NCBI GenBank assembly: GCA_903929315.1
Contig: CAIYUC010000170.1
Location: 1-33,816, forward strand
Length of the DNA: 33,816 bases
Direction of reading: 5' to 3'
DNA from: an uncultured Bacteroidales bacterium
GTDB lineage: Bacteria > Bacteroidota > Bacteroidia > Bacteroidales > FEN-979
In this document: piece by piece, positions 8,417-19,678 of the stretch
Numbering within the stretch: the first letter of the stretch is position 1
Layout: each line of letters begins with the position of its first letter
Made by a program: the position numbers and the translations under genes
Notes under the pieces: model-generated
Told to the model about the DNA's origin: nothing
What the model saw: the letters and a program-made list of their open reading frames with translations, nothing else
Database searches by the model: none

Positions 8417-9223
8417 TTAAGATTTGGGATACATTTTCGCTATAAATGCTTTATCTTTTGCCGAAACCTGATAATTATTAGGAGTGCCTATATGATTCAA
8501 AAACAATGCTGCCGGAAACTGGTAAAGCATAATAGAATGCCTGTCGAAAATAGTTGCACTGATGCCTTTCAGAGAATATTTCTCAAGAATATTATAGTCA
8601 ATCTCAGCTTTAGTCCAGTTGTTTGGGGGGCCTGAAAACTGAGCATAAACTGCTGCTTTATTCCATTGAAGATGCTCGTTGGGTTGCTGATGTTCATGTA
8701 TGCAGCCCAGCGCATGACCGAATTCATGCACAACCACCCGTTCATATTCTTTATCATCTGTATTGTCTTCGAGCCATCCGAAGTTCATGGTAGGTTGATT
8801 TTTCGGACAAAGAGCAATATTGAGAGCATCTTTACCAACCGCAGACCAGGAACCAGGATCTGCTTTAAATGAAATCCGTACCTGTTCATCTTTTGTTGTT
8901 ACAAAAGCAATATGAATGTTTGCATATTGTTCCCAGATTTTAGCATTATGAATCACTTTGGATTGCTGTATCGGTGATCCGTCAAGAAACCGGCACTTCA
9001 GTACAGAACCAACAGGCCATGTCTTTGAAGTGATTAACGCCAGGTGTGGAGCGGGTATCACGCCATTTGGATCTATATCGTGGAATGCTTCCCGAAGCGT
9101 CTTTGCTCCGGTTAGCTTTAAGACCACATCTTCGCGCATTTTATGCAATGCTGCTTCCGCTGAATTTTTTTCAACCGGGATGATACGGTCATAGCAGATT
9201 TTCATGTTTGGATCTCTTTTCAT
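8417..9223 (-). CDS. Astacin-like zinc metalloprotease (metzincin), no signal peptide
   Basis: The 268-residue protein carries the metzincin zinc site HEFGHALGCIHEHQQP (H166, E167, H170, H176) and a Met-turn SIMLYQF (M232), whose tyrosine (Y234) is typical of astacins. An N-terminal region of about 60 residues (EAALHKMREDVVLKLTGAKT..AFHDIDPNG) precedes the catalytic domain. There is no signal peptide or membrane segment, unusual for an astacin, most of which are secreted. The start is taken as ATG 9223; ATG 9205 (MKICYDR) is an alternative. Directly upstream lies one copy of an element shared with two other island genes. It is the last island gene in the direction of transcription. The family call is strong; target and route of export are unknown. 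Confidence 0.8.
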   Translation of the reverse strand: MKRDPNMKICYDRIIPVEKNSAEAALHKMREDVVLKLTGAKTLREAFHDIDPNGVIPAPHLALITSKTWPVGSVLKCRFLDGSPIQQSKVIHNAKIWEQYANIHIAFVTTKDEQVRISFKADPGSWSAVGKDALNIALCPKNQPTMNFGWLEDNTDDKEYERVVVHEFGHALGCIHEHQQPNEHLQWNKAAVYAQFSGPPNNWTKAEIDYNILEKYSLKGISATIFDRHSIMLYQFPAALFLNHIGTPNNYQVSAKDKAFIAKMYPKS

Positions 9224-9248
9224 CTTTTAAAAATTTTAATTTATTCTT

Positions 9249-9285
9249 GCCTACTCTTTGTTTGGATTTTCGGCTTACTCCGTTT
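9249..9285 (-). promoter_or_regulatory. Shared leader/promoter element, copy A (upstream of the metalloprotease)
   Basis: Read in the gene direction: AAACGGAGTAAGCCGAAAA, then TCC, about 6 variable bases, then AAGAGTAGGC, ending 25 bp before the ATG. Copies B (19643-19678) and C (16878-16913) precede two other island genes. It contains the small inverted repeat CGG..CCG. It matches no riboswitch or sigma-factor site I know. Confidence 0.55.
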
Positions 9286-9522: not shown

Positions 9523-10158
9523 TTATCCGCTGTTTCTGGCCCAAAAATCTTTTAAATCCTGTTCCGTTCCGTTGAAATAGTCTCTGTCGCAAAGGCCAAT
9601 CCCGTTGACATCATAGGGAGGATCTCCTTTTGCGCCGTCGGTGTATTGCCACAAAGTCCAGCCTGGCCAGATTTTGGGTATCAACGGTTGTCCTGTAATA
9701 TATTGAGCCATCCACAGCTAGCAATTGGATAATTCAGTATGGTCAGGTTGGGTGATTCCTGCGTTTGACAAGGCCTCTTTAATGGCATGACCTGAATAGA
9801 GTCCAGGATATCTGCCGGTCACTTGGTTGATATAATGAACAAATTGTTCTGCTTCGACAAGACTCATATCATGTCCCTGAGGATTTCCTTCAAAATCAAG
9901 CACAAGGAGAGTATCTTTTCCGACTTTTGACAAAAAGAAATCGGCCTGAGCGACGGCGTCTCCGGCAACGCCAAAATGATATGCCCCGAATAACAAACCG
10001 GCAGCTACTACTTTCTCCCGGTTCTGGTTGAATGTCGGATCAAAGTACCCGAATGCCTGTGTTGCTTTATGAATGACCCCAAGAATACCTGCCTGGCTTG
10101 CATTCGTGAAGCTTTGGATGGTATTGTAATGGGAGATGTCGATTATTGTGTTTATCAT
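9523..10158 (-). pseudogene. GH25 lysozyme interrupted by a single in-frame amber codon
   Basis: A 211-residue glycoside hydrolase family 25 muramidase, which cuts the MurNAc-GlcNAc bond of peptidoglycan. Family marks: IIDISHYN (D7), VLDFEGN (D88, E90, the catalytic DxE) and LWQYTDG near the C-terminus. The frame is uninterrupted except for a TAG at codon 147 (9718-9720), between ELSNC and LWMAQYITGQP. Both halves align to one domain in the same frame, so this is a point nonsense mutation (from TGG or CAG), a suppressed stop, or a sequencing error. No signal peptide is visible. ATG 10158 is preceded by a strong Shine-Dalgarno. The first ~85 bp are duplicated in front of the DUF2235 gene. Confidence 0.8.
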
Positions 10159-10165
10159 TGTTAAT

Positions 10166-10172
10166 CCTCCTT
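10166..10172 (-). promoter_or_regulatory. Strong Shine-Dalgarno of the lysozyme gene
   Basis: AAGGAGG (reverse strand), 7 bp before the ATG at 10158. Strong Shine-Dalgarno sequences are rare in Bacteroidota, so this confirms the start and suggests high-level translation or foreign origin. Confidence 0.7.
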
Positions 10173-10273
10173 GTTTTAAATATTTGATTTTTTAATAGTT
10201 ATTACTCCTGACTTACAGCAAATCCTGGCACTGATTTTCAATACCACTAATGATAATCTCTTTGAGTATTATT

Positions 10274-11044
10274 CTATTTCAGCCACAATTCGATGGTGCC
10301 TTCTTTCGTTTTGTTGCTATATCCAAAAATAGGTTTGAGTAGGGTTTCGATATTCTGATCTTTAAGCATATTTTGGAGAATTTTCGCAAAGTTTTCATCG
10401 GATTCCCTGAAGTACCTGATTTCGTTTGTTGTCAGTTTCCTCGCACTTCCTACAAGTTCGACACCGGGCGCTTTGTAGCCGATGTCATTAATTTTTGTTA
10501 TTAATTTGTTGGCTGCATTCCTTTGCACCTCGCTGCCAAACTGGATATAAACAATAGGAATAACAGAACTATTCGGCAAAACAATTGGTTGGTTCAATAA
10601 CCGTTGCGTTTCCTGTACCTGGTTTTCAAGTTGTTCTTTCTCCTTCTTCTGGGAGTTACTTAACAAAGAAGAGTCTTTATCCCTGAGGATCTTTAATTTT
10701 GCAAGGGCCAGGGTGTCTTTCTGAAGTAATTCTTTGTATTCGAGGTCTACTGCATTGTAATACAATTCCTAACCTTTTCTTAATTTCTCGGAAGGTGTTA
10801 CCGTGGAAAAAAATTGTGCCAGCATACGTTTGTTGACAGGGTTATTGTTAAGGACTATCAGCTCTGTTGCATATTTATCATATTGTTGTATTTCATTAAG
10901 CCCTTCTTCACGGTCATTGAAGCCCCAATTGATTATTGTGGTCATAATAACCAAAGCCACACTACCAATGAGCCATTTGATGAGATCAACCTTGTATTTG
11001 TATTTTTCGAAGGATAAATTTGGGTTGTGAGAATCGTTTTCCAT
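10274..11044 (-). pseudogene. Single-pass membrane protein with coiled coil and C-terminal LytR_C/SPOR-like domain, interrupted by an amber codon
   Basis: One 256-codon frame is split by TAG (10769-10771) after residue 91. The upstream part has an N-terminal transmembrane helix (WLIGSVALVIMTTIINWGF, about residues 24-42). Beyond the stop the frame continues ELYYNAVDLEYKELLQKD, then a charged coiled-coil stretch (about 100-160), then PIVYIQFGSEVQRNAANKLITKI. That last segment has the alternating pattern of LytR_C- or SPOR-like domains, which often bind envelope components. A downstream TTG is available but lacks an RBS, so a break in one gene is likelier than two genes. It follows the DUF2235 gene by 41 bp on the same strand and could be its membrane partner or immunity protein. 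This is inference; the function is unknown. Confidence 0.6.
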
Positions 11045-11085: not shown

Positions 11086-12123
11086 CTAAGGATGCCGATT
11101 AAAATAATCAACCAAATTTTGTGGCCGGTATTCTTTGTCATTTTTATACCTCTCCACTACTGATGGATGTATAAACTCATTCGTATTCCCTTTTTTTGGA
11201 TCTACCTGCCCTATCGGGCGAAACAGCTTATGTTGTAGCTTATAAAGTCCCTTGTATGATTCATGCATAATTGCCATGGGGTTGGGGTTCATCACAATAG
11301 TATCAAAATTCAGATTACAACTTTGTGCTTTTCCCAGCATCCATGTTAATGAAATATCCGACAATCCTGCTTCGGTTTCGGGATAGCCGCCACCCACATC
11401 AGAATGGACACCGGGAAACCACACCTGTTCCAAAACCTGGTCTTTTGAATTTAGTTGCTGATGCCACAATGTAGCTTCAAAATTTTTCCTTTTCTCATCA
11501 ATAGCGAGGGCATGAAATGCATTGCTGACTCTTGTCGATAAATCAGTATCGTGAAATTGGTTTTGTTTACTGAGAATTCCATTCAGAAAAAGAGGATTCC
11601 CCAATGCACCAACAGTGTCCCATACTCCTATAAATTTAATTCTTGTGGTTTCTTCAACTGCAAATGTCTTTCTGAATAGCGTAGCTTCAACTTCCCTTGG
11701 CTGATATTGAGGCAGCCGTGAACGGTATATACTATATGCCCTTGATACATGATCCAAATTTTCAATTTTTAAAATTCCTGAATTCCGGATCAAACCGGAT
11801 AGGCTACGTACAGTAAATGCACCACGGCTGAAACCAAATAAGAACAACTCATCTCCTGGTTCGTAATTATTAATGATAAAGCGGTATGCCTGGAGTATGT
11901 GGTCCGAAATGCCGGTTCCGGTTGCACCATCAAAAACCCGTTGGGTCAAATTGCCTTCACTGCCAATTCCTGTTTCATAATAAAGTAATTGCGTCATTCC
12001 GTCAATGGAGACAGGACTAAGCGCATTCGCCATTTTAACTACATTTGTCGGGCAGTGTTTCCCATTCTCTTCTTTATCCGGAGTGTTCCATGTGCCATCA
12101 CAAAAAATCGCAATTCTTTTCAT
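11086..12123 (-). CDS. DUF2235 alpha/beta-hydrolase, Tle1-like lipase
   Basis: The 345-residue protein opens with the family hallmark IAIFCDGTWN. It has the nucleophile elbow LFGFSRGAF (S99), FIGVWDTVGALG (D169) and FPGVHSDVGGGYPE (H240, D242), giving a Ser-Asp-His triad. DUF2235 includes type VI secretion phospholipase effectors (Tle1 family) that hydrolyse membrane phospholipids. There is no signal peptide. The ATG (12121-12123) overlaps by 4 bp (ATGA) the end of a 36-codon ORF derived from the lysozyme 5' end, so translation may be coupled to it. Stops are tandem (TAG TAA). A membrane-protein gene follows 41 bp downstream. No VgrG, Hcp or other secretion component is in the window. Confidence 0.85.
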   Translation of the reverse strand: MKRIAIFCDGTWNTPDKEENGKHCPTNVVKMANALSPVSIDGMTQLLYYETGIGSEGNLTQRVFDGATGTGISDHILQAYRFIINNYEPGDELFLFGFSRGAFTVRSLSGLIRNSGILKIENLDHVSRAYSIYRSRLPQYQPREVEATLFRKTFAVEETTRIKFIGVWDTVGALGNPLFLNGILSKQNQFHDTDLSTRVSNAFHALAIDEKRKNFEATLWHQQLNSKDQVLEQVWFPGVHSDVGGGYPETEAGLSDISLTWMLGKAQSCNLNFDTIVMNPNPMAIMHESYKGLYKLQHKLFRPIGQVDPKKGNTNEFIHPSVVERYKNDKEYRPQNLVDYFNRHP

Positions 12124-15239: not shown

Positions 15240-16157
15240 TTACAGAGTGATTAAATTTTGAGATTGTAAGGTTTTATCAATAGGAAGTACAAAAGTGAAC
15301 TTTTCATCACAGCCTAAAAGCATTCCAATTAATTGATCTGTACCTCTTTTAAAAACGCAGCTACCCGAATCACCGCCTTGGGAAACCGGATGGGAGTTCT
15401 GCCTGTCGTTTGTAGAACCGATGAAGATGATATTCTTTTTATAAACTTTTACTCCATCGTATATTACATCTGTCCCCTTGCCATAGTCAAGGATATAGGC
15501 ATCCCTGATTCTGTTGTTCTTTGAAATGATGGTTACATTCGGTTGTTGTGGTTTCACATCAATACCAGAAACCGTATAATACTGGTTAGAGAAATACTTG
15601 TAATTTTCAGAAAGTTCCTGACCATCATCAAGTTTAATGACAGCAAGATCCTGGTTGTATGATAAAAGCTTATAGAACCAGGTCCCTGCCTTGTTTCCAT
15701 CAAGTAATACATTTGTAGGAATGGGGGGATTCTGAATATCATTATAGCTTTCATCATAGACGCCATGGGTTATGATATGAGCAGAAGTAACTACCCCAAA
15801 AAACTTTGGATCTGTTGTTGAACGAACGGCACAACAAATTGAACCAGGATAAACCGGATCTATATCATTTGAAACCTCCGAATCGGGTTGTGAGAATTGG
15901 ATGGTTGCGGTACCTACCCTTATTACCATTTCTGTTGAAAGTGTTTTAATAGTACCATCTGGCATCCTGACGTCCAATTTTTCCGGAATATTCTTAGTAT
16001 TGTTGTCTTTTAAGTAAATGGCAATTACATGCGATTCCTTCTGATTAAGATCATGAACGGCATCACTCACGGTTTTAATATTAGGAAATTTCATCCTTAA
16101 CCTTTCTTCATGTTGTTCAACTGCTCTCCTTGCAATTTCTGCCTGACTGTAATTCAT
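15240..16157 (-). CDS. Trypsin-like serine protease without signal peptide
   Basis: Chymotrypsin-fold protease with triad H127 (VVTSAHIITHG), D170 (NQDLAVIKL) and S264 (QGGDSGSCVF). The residues around the serine (GGDSGS) are canonical. The N-terminal ~45 residues (SQAEIARRAVEQHEERLRMK, then TVSDAVHDLN) form a helical extension in which KTVSDAVHDL loosely resembles the metalloprotease N-terminus (KTLREAFHDI). No signal peptide is visible; an activation cleavage cannot be excluded. I chose ATG 16157; the frame extends upstream to a TTG at 16265 but that stretch looks non-coding. The 975-residue exported protein follows after 2 bp. The likely promoter (16521-16598) is about 365 bp upstream, giving a long leader. 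It may process its operon partner or act as an effector; both are inference. Confidence 0.82.
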   Translation of the reverse strand: MNYSQAEIARRAVEQHEERLRMKFPNIKTVSDAVHDLNQKESHVIAIYLKDNNTKNIPEKLDVRMPDGTIKTLSTEMVIRVGTATIQFSQPDSEVSNDIDPVYPGSICCAVRSTTDPKFFGVVTSAHIITHGVYDESYNDIQNPPIPTNVLLDGNKAGTWFYKLLSYNQDLAVIKLDDGQELSENYKYFSNQYYTVSGIDVKPQQPNVTIISKNNRIRDAYILDYGKGTDVIYDGVKVYKKNIIFIGSTNDRQNSHPVSQGGDSGSCVFKRGTDQLIGMLLGCDEKFTFVLPIDKTLQSQNLITL

Positions 16158-16520
16158 ATTTATTGAGTCGGTTTTCAATGTGTGTGTTTTTTTTACGCCC
16201 AATTTACGTTCGAAATAGGATTGAGTCGCCTTCCGCCAAAAACAAAGACAATTATTCCGACCCAATATTGATCTAATCCGATATCCCTCAGATTATGATG
16301 TTCTCATTCGATTTTCAATAATAAAATGCAGATTACATTAACAGTCATAAAACAATAATCCGCATCGTACTTAGTCATTCATTCTGATCTTGCAATAATG
16401 AAGGTAATGCAAAATCAACCCCTAACATGATCAGGAAAAAATTAACTGCAAGCTTTCCACCGGAGGATGGATCCGTGTCTTTTAAATACTACTAATGGAT
16501 GTTTAAATGTATTTGTTTTT
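16158..16520 (-). other. Long leader of the serine-protease operon with a decayed ORF
   Basis: Between the promoter cassette and the ATG there is no intact gene. A short frame, LKDTDPSSGGKLAVNFFLIM then LGVDFALPSLLQDQNE, ends at TGA near 16377. It has no good start except the internal ATG, which would give a 17-residue peptide. It looks like the end of a lost membrane-protein gene, or a leader peptide. An imperfect inverted repeat (TCCA-CCGGAGGA-TGGA) lies near 16456-16471. Confidence 0.3.
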
Positions 16521-16877: not shown

Positions 16878-16913
16878 AAACGGAGGAAGCCGAAAATCCG
16901 ATGAAGAGTAGGC
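16878..16913 (+). promoter_or_regulatory. Shared leader/promoter element, copy C (upstream of the 210-residue membrane protein)
   Basis: AAACGGAGGAAGCCGAAAA, then TCC, then GATG, then AAGAGTAGGC, ending 19 bp before ATG 16933. It is nearly identical to copies A and B, which lie on the other strand before the metalloprotease and PLD genes. Unlike A and B it lacks the rest of the 175-bp repeat, which marks this core as the conserved unit. Confidence 0.6.
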
Positions 16914-16932
16914 GTTAATTAAAACCCTGAAT

Positions 16933-17767: not shown

Positions 17768-19606
17768 TTATGCTAGTAATATGCGCTCTTTATAATGAGC
17801 ATCATTTTCAGCATAGTAATTCTTTGTCCAAAGGTCGTCCTGTTCCAGGGTCATTGGCTTAGCTCCTGAAACAGGAGTGGTTTTCCCGGGGTTAATTGAT
17901 GTCGTTTTGGATGCCTTTGTTTTTACCCCTTTACCTGGAATAGCAGGGTTATTGCTTGCTCCAAATTTATCCCTGAAATTGAAATGATCAACCAGAGCAA
18001 AGGCTTCTATAGCAAATACTGTTGAAATGTCCTGATCATAGATTGCTACTAAATTATCTCCATTAGCTGCCTCCCCTCCTTGTGCAAGGTTAGAAGAGCC
18101 ACAGTATGTAACCGGGTCTGATCCGTTAAAGTCGCATATTACAAATTTGTGATGAATTTGATGACCTAACCCGGCTACAGGTTCTTCCTGATCGAATGGG
18201 GGAGGTAATTTTGTTTGTCCTGGTTTACCGCTGACAAGCACGCCTGAGGGGTTACCCGGTTTATATAATGAAATACCATTGCCGGGGCTATCAGAAATGC
18301 CATAGCTGAAAATATTTTGGTTAGTATGAATTTCCTCAAGTGCCTGTAAAATCGGACCTGTACCCGGATCCAAAGCCATTACGGCAAATAAAACACTGCT
18401 TTTTTCGACACTTATACGGTCGGAAATAGTTTTAAGATTGCTGAGAGCAAATGCCGGTTTGTGAGGAGAAAAGGTAATTTCTGTTTTTGGTAAAATACCC
18501 GATCCAAAAGAAAATACCTTAGATGCAAATGAAGAATGACTGAATGCCATTTTAACATTATCATTCCATGATTCCTGAAAAACGGCCCCATAGGTTTGTG
18601 CTACCGTTTCATCGCTTAAAATAACTACATGATTTGAATTTACATACATTCCTGTGACTGAAAAATTTGTGGAACCAAAAAGAACCTTCTCCGGAGCATT
18701 ATTTTTATAAACAATAAATATTTTATCATGAGAAAATCTTCCGAATTTTCCTCGTTTGATTGTTGCATTTCCTTTTGCATTATTCATGAACAGGTTTTCA
18801 AATTGATCTTCTGACAGCGTACCGGTACTGTCATGATGTAATGATGCATTATCCAGTATTATGCGGATGCGACCTTCCCTGGCAAGCTGTATTAGAATAT
18901 TGATAACATCAGGCTCATTAAGATCATAAGCAAATACATCTAATTTAAGAGTATTGTCATTTGCCACTTCATTTAAAACTGAAAATATTTTTTCACGTGC
19001 AGTAAATCCTGACCATTTATATTCATCAAGAAAAGTAAAAGAATCACCGGCGTCGTTTTTACCGGCAATAGTACCAGTATCAAATTGCAGTACCTTACCG
19101 GCAGGCTTAAAAGGAGCTTTGTCACCAAAATGATGTGCAAATGCCTGTGATTGAACAAAACCCCGGGTAAATCCAACCTCAACGGCACCCTTCGTGAAGG
19201 GTGCTACCTGAATGGTTACAGAAACACTAAGTAATTGATCTAAGCCTTGCAGAATACCTTTGTCATTAAAATACCGTGGGCTGACGGTATATGTATATAA
19301 TCCATAAAAGACAGTATCACCCTGATGAAAACTGCCTGGTACGTGCACCCAAGAGAATTTTTGAAAGGGAGCATTAATACTTGAATATGATGGCTCACTT
19401 GTAACTTGAACATGGAGCGCGGGATTTGCAAACTGCAATTGATTAAAGAGATAATATTCCTTTTCGCCTTGCGGCTGACAAGAAATAGTAAATCCAGCCA
19501 GGTTACTTGTTTGTTTTTCTGGCATATCAAAGGCGAGCAACGTTTTAGCATCACCACGGTAGGCTTTTACAGAAAGTCCATTTTCAATAGATTTTTTTGT
19601 AAACAT
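17768..19606 (-). CDS. Phospholipase-D-superfamily protein with two HxK motifs
   Basis: 612 residues. After an N-terminal ~185-residue domain of beta-rich look (possibly fibronectin-like: FTISCQPQGEKEYYLFNQLQ, FYGLYTYTVSPRYF) come two PLD half-sites: FSHDKIFIVY with GSTNFS (H293, K295) and IHHKFVICDF with GSSNLA (H485, K487, D492). The second fits HxKx4D; the first lacks the aspartate at its usual position. PLD-superfamily enzymes cleave phosphodiesters in phospholipids or nucleic acids; the bipartite layout fits either. The C-terminal ~60 residues are lysine/threonine-rich. No signal peptide is visible. Shared element copy B and the 175-bp repeat lie directly upstream. Substrate unknown. Confidence 0.8.
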   Translation of the reverse strand: MFTKKSIENGLSVKAYRGDAKTLLAFDMPEKQTSNLAGFTISCQPQGEKEYYLFNQLQFANPALHVQVTSEPSYSSINAPFQKFSWVHVPGSFHQGDTVFYGLYTYTVSPRYFNDKGILQGLDQLLSVSVTIQVAPFTKGAVEVGFTRGFVQSQAFAHHFGDKAPFKPAGKVLQFDTGTIAGKNDAGDSFTFLDEYKWSGFTAREKIFSVLNEVANDNTLKLDVFAYDLNEPDVINILIQLAREGRIRIILDNASLHHDSTGTLSEDQFENLFMNNAKGNATIKRGKFGRFSHDKIFIVYKNNAPEKVLFGSTNFSVTGMYVNSNHVVILSDETVAQTYGAVFQESWNDNVKMAFSHSSFASKVFSFGSGILPKTEITFSPHKPAFALSNLKTISDRISVEKSSVLFAVMALDPGTGPILQALEEIHTNQNIFSYGISDSPGNGISLYKPGNPSGVLVSGKPGQTKLPPPFDQEEPVAGLGHQIHHKFVICDFNGSDPVTYCGSSNLAQGGEAANGDNLVAIYDQDISTVFAIEAFALVDHFNFRDKFGASNNPAIPGKGVKTKASKTTSINPGKTTPVSGAKPMTLEQDDLWTKNYYAENDAHYKERILLA

Positions 19607-19642
19607 AGAAGTACGTTTTTAAAAAGTTAGTTTTAAAAAATT

Positions 19643-19678
19643 GCATACTCTTTTGCGGGTTTTCGGCTTCCTCCGTTT
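19643..19678 (-). promoter_or_regulatory. Shared leader/promoter element, copy B (upstream of the PLD gene)
   Basis: Gene direction: AAACGGAGGAAGCCGAAAA, CCC, GCAA, AAGAGTATGC, ending 36 bp before ATG 19606. Differs from copies A and C at a few positions only. Confidence 0.55.

Follow-up and report, generated by a model that had tools for sequence, protein, structure and literature searches.

Two adjoining genes of a Bacteroidales draft genome were probably interrupted by recent nonsense mutations at tryptophan codons

A GH25 lysozyme gene and the small membrane-protein gene next to it were probably each hit recently by a nonsense mutation at a tryptophan codon. Both lie in contig C170, which we analyzed over its whole length of 33,816 bases (the window; Table 1) and which is part of a 4.31-Mb draft genome of 244 contigs (98.51% complete, 3.23% estimated contamination). 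In this explanation, both genes belong to an accessory cassette, and TAG is an ordinary stop codon. Translation would end after residue 146 of the lysozyme and residue 91 of the membrane protein. The lysozyme would be missing roughly the final third of its catalytic domain, and the membrane protein would keep its membrane segment and a short tail. A sequence-only reading of the window had found both TAGs and numbered their codons correctly. Of the causes that it offered, inactivation or sequence error fits our results, but coordination of the two inactivations is without support. If one gene was already dead, its partner may have been freed, and the lesions could have come to lie side by side in that way.

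Table 1. Features of the two interrupted genes, their surroundings, and the tRNA-like element
Feature	Position	Strand	Remarks
Astacin-like (metzincin) gene	8417..9223	-	Downstream of lysozyme; Pfam PF01400, 28.5 bits (cut-off 22.5)
DUF805b element (Rfam RF02914)	9248..9283	-	5' of the 9223 gene; 44.8 bits versus a gathering score of 35.6
ATG-started frame, 62 aa	9523..9711	-	ATG is the third codon past the lysozyme TAG
GH25 lysozyme frame, 211 codons including TAG	9526..10158	-	TAA follows at 9525-9523; Pfam PF01183
In-frame TAG, codon 147 of lysozyme frame	9718..9720	-	Read in sequence; Trp/TGG in 42/57 GH25 loci
Membrane-protein frame	10274..11044	-	Upstream of lysozyme; closed by its own TAG (10276-10274)
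In-frame TAG, codon 92 of membrane-protein frame	10769..10771	-	Read in sequence; Trp/TGG in 13/13 relatives
Tle1-like phospholipase catalytic-domain gene	11086..12123	-	Upstream of membrane-protein frame; Pfam PF09994, 292.4 bits; ends TAG TAA
DUF805b element (RF02914)	16880-16914	+	Upstream of island gene 16933
DUF805b element (RF02914)	19642-19676	-	Upstream of island gene 19606
tRNA-like sequence, ARAGORN CTA ("Pyl")	C140:1880-1953 (L069:1880-1953)		RF00005 match, 38 bits

The lysozyme frame has one internal stop only. It matched the Pfam profile Glyco_hydro_25 with 109.3 bits, above the curated cut-off of 27, and this places it in the GH25 family. The match covers profile positions 1 to 174 of 180 and spans the TAG, which was entered as X. 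The normally translated product, ending after 146 of the 211 residues, does not hold the complete domain. The segment that aligns to FWVAHW and WTFWQYS of 1jfx falls 3' of the stop. Reinitiation at the ATG shortly past the TAG might possibly yield a short product from the remainder. The membrane-protein frame also has a single internal stop, and it encodes one transmembrane-like stretch at about residues 19 to 42, as judged by eye.

To see what relatives have at the two sites, we searched for both proteins in 43 genomes of the family and, at the level of the order, in 393 genomes. Besides our genome, two in the family encode a relative of the lysozyme (G018 and G024, 73-75% identity), both without an internal stop. 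The membrane protein had 13 relatives in the family. Twelve match its N-terminal part (38-52% identity), and the other, in G018, matches residues 165-255 and is encoded directly upstream of the G018 GH25 gene. Extending the search to the order brought in G764 and, with a weak match, G772. At site 92, all 13 relatives of the N-terminal part that we read have Trp as TGG, a count that leaves out the weak G772 relative (27% identity), which is unreadable there. For site 147, 59 GH25 loci came from named genomes, and two of them do not cover the site. The other 57 have 42 Trp (all TGG), 5 Pro, 5 Arg, 2 Phe, 1 Leu, 1 Ser, 1 gap, and no stop; one of these 57 alignments has an in-frame stop, placed at its very end. 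More distant GH25 loci of the phylum had Pro at this site in 22 of 27 aligned and Trp in none (29 loci compared).

The sequence-only reading had noted that each TAG is one substitution away from TGG or CAG. TGG is what most of these relatives have, but none of them showed CAG at either position. Neither TAG is common to any relative that we read. The match to the membrane protein in G005 does contain one TAG, but this is at the protein's own C-terminal end, far past site 92. The earlier statement that similarity continues in frame past both stops was right as well: besides the profile match, relatives align across both. Separate starts for the downstream halves in relatives, which that reading had named as a possible refutation, were not what we found. 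Relatives cross both sites in one open frame, and therefore these are interrupted genes and not naturally split ones. In both, an in-frame stop stands where intact relatives have a sense codon, the mark of a nonsense pseudogene, and loss of function is predicted.

The lysozyme's GH25 subfamily is scattered across several phyla, including two Wolbachia metagenome-assembled genomes (MAGs) and, at 65% identity, a Verrucomicrobiaceae MAG. This suggests wide horizontal transfer or binning errors. Neither the lysozyme nor the membrane protein has a match in G028, a genome from the same genus. Scatter of the one and absence of both from G028 are what accessory genes would show. In G018 (L058:9685-10386), the C-terminal domain of the membrane protein is present again beside the GH25 gene, behind a different N-terminal part, so that the cassette looks modular. 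We also considered a phage origin. The lysozyme does match phage endolysin families, but the viral contigs scanned contained no relative of either protein, and we rejected this origin.

We asked how old the stops might be. The lysozyme is 75% identical to its G018 relative and 73% identical to that of G024. Before and after the TAG, these identities are 75.3% and 75.0% for G018 and 76.0% and 67.2% for G024. The control pair, G018 versus G024, gave 78.8% and 67.7% for the same two parts. The C-terminal part is no more changed than expected, which leaves either a young stop or a wrong base. No relaxed selection was seen 3' of the lysozyme TAG, but this is a weak test, and the argument for recency from these identities is weak too, with synonymous differences (0.64-0.85 per site) close to saturation. 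We infer that the changes are real, recent, and function-abolishing, and we propose that their recency explains why the two frames show no other damage. The same lack of further damage counts against mutation, since it leaves loss of function without support from decay.

A wrong base is the second possibility. In this case, one site or both would be TGG in the organism itself, and consensus or assembly errors or a minority allele would have entered the draft. The number of contigs and the estimated contamination of the draft are compatible with this. So are the two frames, which are otherwise perfect and each differ from relatives by a single G-to-A transition on the coding strand. However, two such sites within 1.1 kb, compared with one credible interrupted gene in 245 alignments from elsewhere in the genome (see below), are more local than evenly spread errors would be. 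We consider error unlikely, though worth taking seriously.

Another alternative is that TAG has been reassigned to an amino acid throughout the genome. The two in-frame TAGs at Trp sites and a tRNA-like element with a called CTA anticodon are what this would predict. However, release factor 1 (prfA) is intact (499.1 bits versus a cut-off of 423.25, no internal stops). We also examined 144 alignments that reach a conserved C-terminus. Eight genes stop later and three have no stop within 20 codons, and the other 133 end with a stop where expected: 69 with TAA, 39 with TGA, and 25 with TAG. Among long stop-to-stop frames (503,398 bases), TAG closes 64 of 382. Frames of at least 150 codons stayed open for 60 more codons slightly more often after TAG (12/64) than after TAA (25/204) or TGA (16/114), but the difference from the latter two combined (41/318) is of no weight (Fisher P 0.23). 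PylS had no match in this genome (of 14 controls searched in the same way, 13 gave a signal and one was over the cut-off).

We then set 1.04 Mb of our assembly against 1.11 Mb of G028, which gave 245 alignments and 86,972 residues. Of 1,044 query Trp residues, 868 were kept as Trp, and none was replaced by TAG outside the window. The sequence-only reading had called for a search for other in-frame TAGs, and at Trp sites these alignments contained none. Only two TAGs occurred in them, one opposite a gap and the other opposite Cys, in an alignment of 62 columns with a second stop in it. The two TAGs of the window showed up only when other relatives served as the query (a second run, six alignments). 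Therefore, with release factor 1 intact, TAG at conserved ends, and no Trp-to-TAG change elsewhere, recoding is not supported. TAG is not avoided as a terminator, release factor 1 is not lost, and conserved positions are not rich in TAG. To judge from the roughly one quarter of the genome covered, TAG terminates in this organism, and we give reassignment almost no credence.

The same alignments indicate how often genes are interrupted. With G028 as the query, 15 stops fell inside alignments. By eye, we kept one and set aside 14 (gaps, positions near alignment ends, or doubtful frames), including a Trp-to-TGA change at L088:1256, where the frame is presumed spurious. The one kept, on contig C28 (L210:12093), is a Trp-to-TGA change in a decayed gene. 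The similarity of that gene to its G028 counterpart of 1,029 residues is limited to three main pieces, and a further stop precedes the TGA by some 93 codons. In the reverse run, 253 alignments showed nine stops in G028. None replaces a Trp, and two are TAG, at Tyr and at Gln. One, on G028 contig C8 (L188:6583), is a single TAG opposite Tyr in a frame that is otherwise open. A GH25 gene in G180 (L142) likewise has a single in-frame TAG, where L144 has Tyr, and is otherwise open. That lesions of this type also arise away from the cassette speaks for nonsense mutation. Two interrupted neighbors stand out against the 245-alignment sample, but this sample favors conserved genes and is not a rate for accessory genes. 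The other 20 frames of the window were chosen as open frames, and their freedom from stops carries no information.

Nonsense mutation has close precedents. In-frame stops in pseudogenes arise mostly by single transitions of codons such as UGG, and they gave rise to false inferences of UAG- or UGA-to-Trp codes in eight yeast species (Shulgina and Eddy 2021, PMC8629427). Thus, the Trp-to-stop transition is already known as a mark of pseudogenes and as a mimic of a stop-to-Trp code. The yeast genes resemble ours in having UAG or UGA at a conserved Trp with the standard code elsewhere. However, those yeast genomes have no suppressor tRNA genes (PMC8629427), whereas here there are two neighboring genes of a bacterial draft and one odd CTA-called element. 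Other work counts against mutation. Belinky et al. (2021, PMC7918605) argue that in-frame stops are widespread in bacteria, with dN/dS often kept below 1. Their genes are like ours in that an open, conserved frame flanks the stop on either side, but the focus there is on stops in orthologues common to two or more species (PMC7918605), whereas no relative that we read has either of the TAGs here. The present case shows how two in-frame TAGs can mimic recoding, together with the checks that separate the two.

Also against mutation, both lesions are TAG, and the assembly contains a tRNA-like sequence with a called CTA anticodon. An RF00005 search found 41 tRNA places, at each of which ARAGORN calls a tRNA; 150 of 245 first-look candidates were scored, and a weak tRNA could be missed. 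Forty of the 41 have sense anticodons, including one tRNA-Trp with anticodon CCA. The other is the CTA-called element on C140, an 8,052-base contig, where it sits between a small unknown open reading frame and an IS1595-family transposase gene. The sequence-only reading had suggested looking for a CTA suppressor, and this is one candidate. Its acceptor, D, and T arms are fully paired. The anticodon arm, however, looks defective, being mismatched in both registers and without U33 in either. U33 is nearly universal in tRNAs.

Partial readthrough is a further alternative, in which near-cognate misreading or the C140 element would give some full-length product, and the genes would be turned down instead of lost. 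The frames are intact past both stops, the element scores as a tRNA with three well-paired arms, and site 147 tolerates five other residues in relatives, all of which agree with readthrough. Against it, in addition to the faulty anticodon arm, is the identity of the element. In a simple alignment with 34 of the 40 other tRNAs of this genome, tRNA-Leu(taa) and tRNA-Gln(ttg) tied as closest, not tRNA-Trp, and the 5' end and D arm resemble Gln tRNAs. Furthermore, the element was not found in the other 42 of the 43 family genomes, and it has no match in viral contigs (an exact 31-base pattern), plasmids, or phages. We regard readthrough as improbable.

A more elaborate version has the lysozyme and its membrane partner held off by their amber codons and switched on only by TAG readthrough. 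The suppressor tRNA would come, for example, from a TAG-recoded phage that invades the cell or from the mobile element on C140, and the cell would lyse before the phage was complete. Such suppression, if it occurs, would be one of few cases in which a mobile tRNA controls genes of its host. Hosts of crAss-like phages are related to the organism studied here. These phages reportedly recode TAG with a suppressor tRNA and likewise have in-frame TAGs (PMC7886860, PMC12386605). In our genome, by contrast, TAG closes ordinary genes, the viral contigs searched gave no relative of either protein, and the tRNA-like element looks defective and is on another contig. That no relative read has either TAG counts against a switch as well, and we think it extremely improbable.

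The two frames are flanked by Tle1-like phospholipase, astacin-like, and PLD-family genes and by several genes without a Pfam family, with housekeeping genes beyond. On the dnaE side, five genes (21357, 24904, 25273, 28903, and 31584) are collinear with G028. The astacin-like gene also gave a partial match to NCBIfam NF050131 (128.4 bits, below the cut-off of 650). We considered whether the island is a defense system and rejected this. PADLOC run on ten island proteins gave only two matches, DrmC (34.3 bits, 17768-19606) and a marginal methyltransferase (14.3 bits, 15240-16265).

Three DUF805b elements lie on this contig, two above and one below the gathering score, each some 19-36 bases 5' of a different island gene. 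The whole genome has seven matches at E 0.01, three of them on C170. Our literature search found nothing on this DUF805b/DUF805 motif. These elements may be marks of gene cassettes or of shared regulation.
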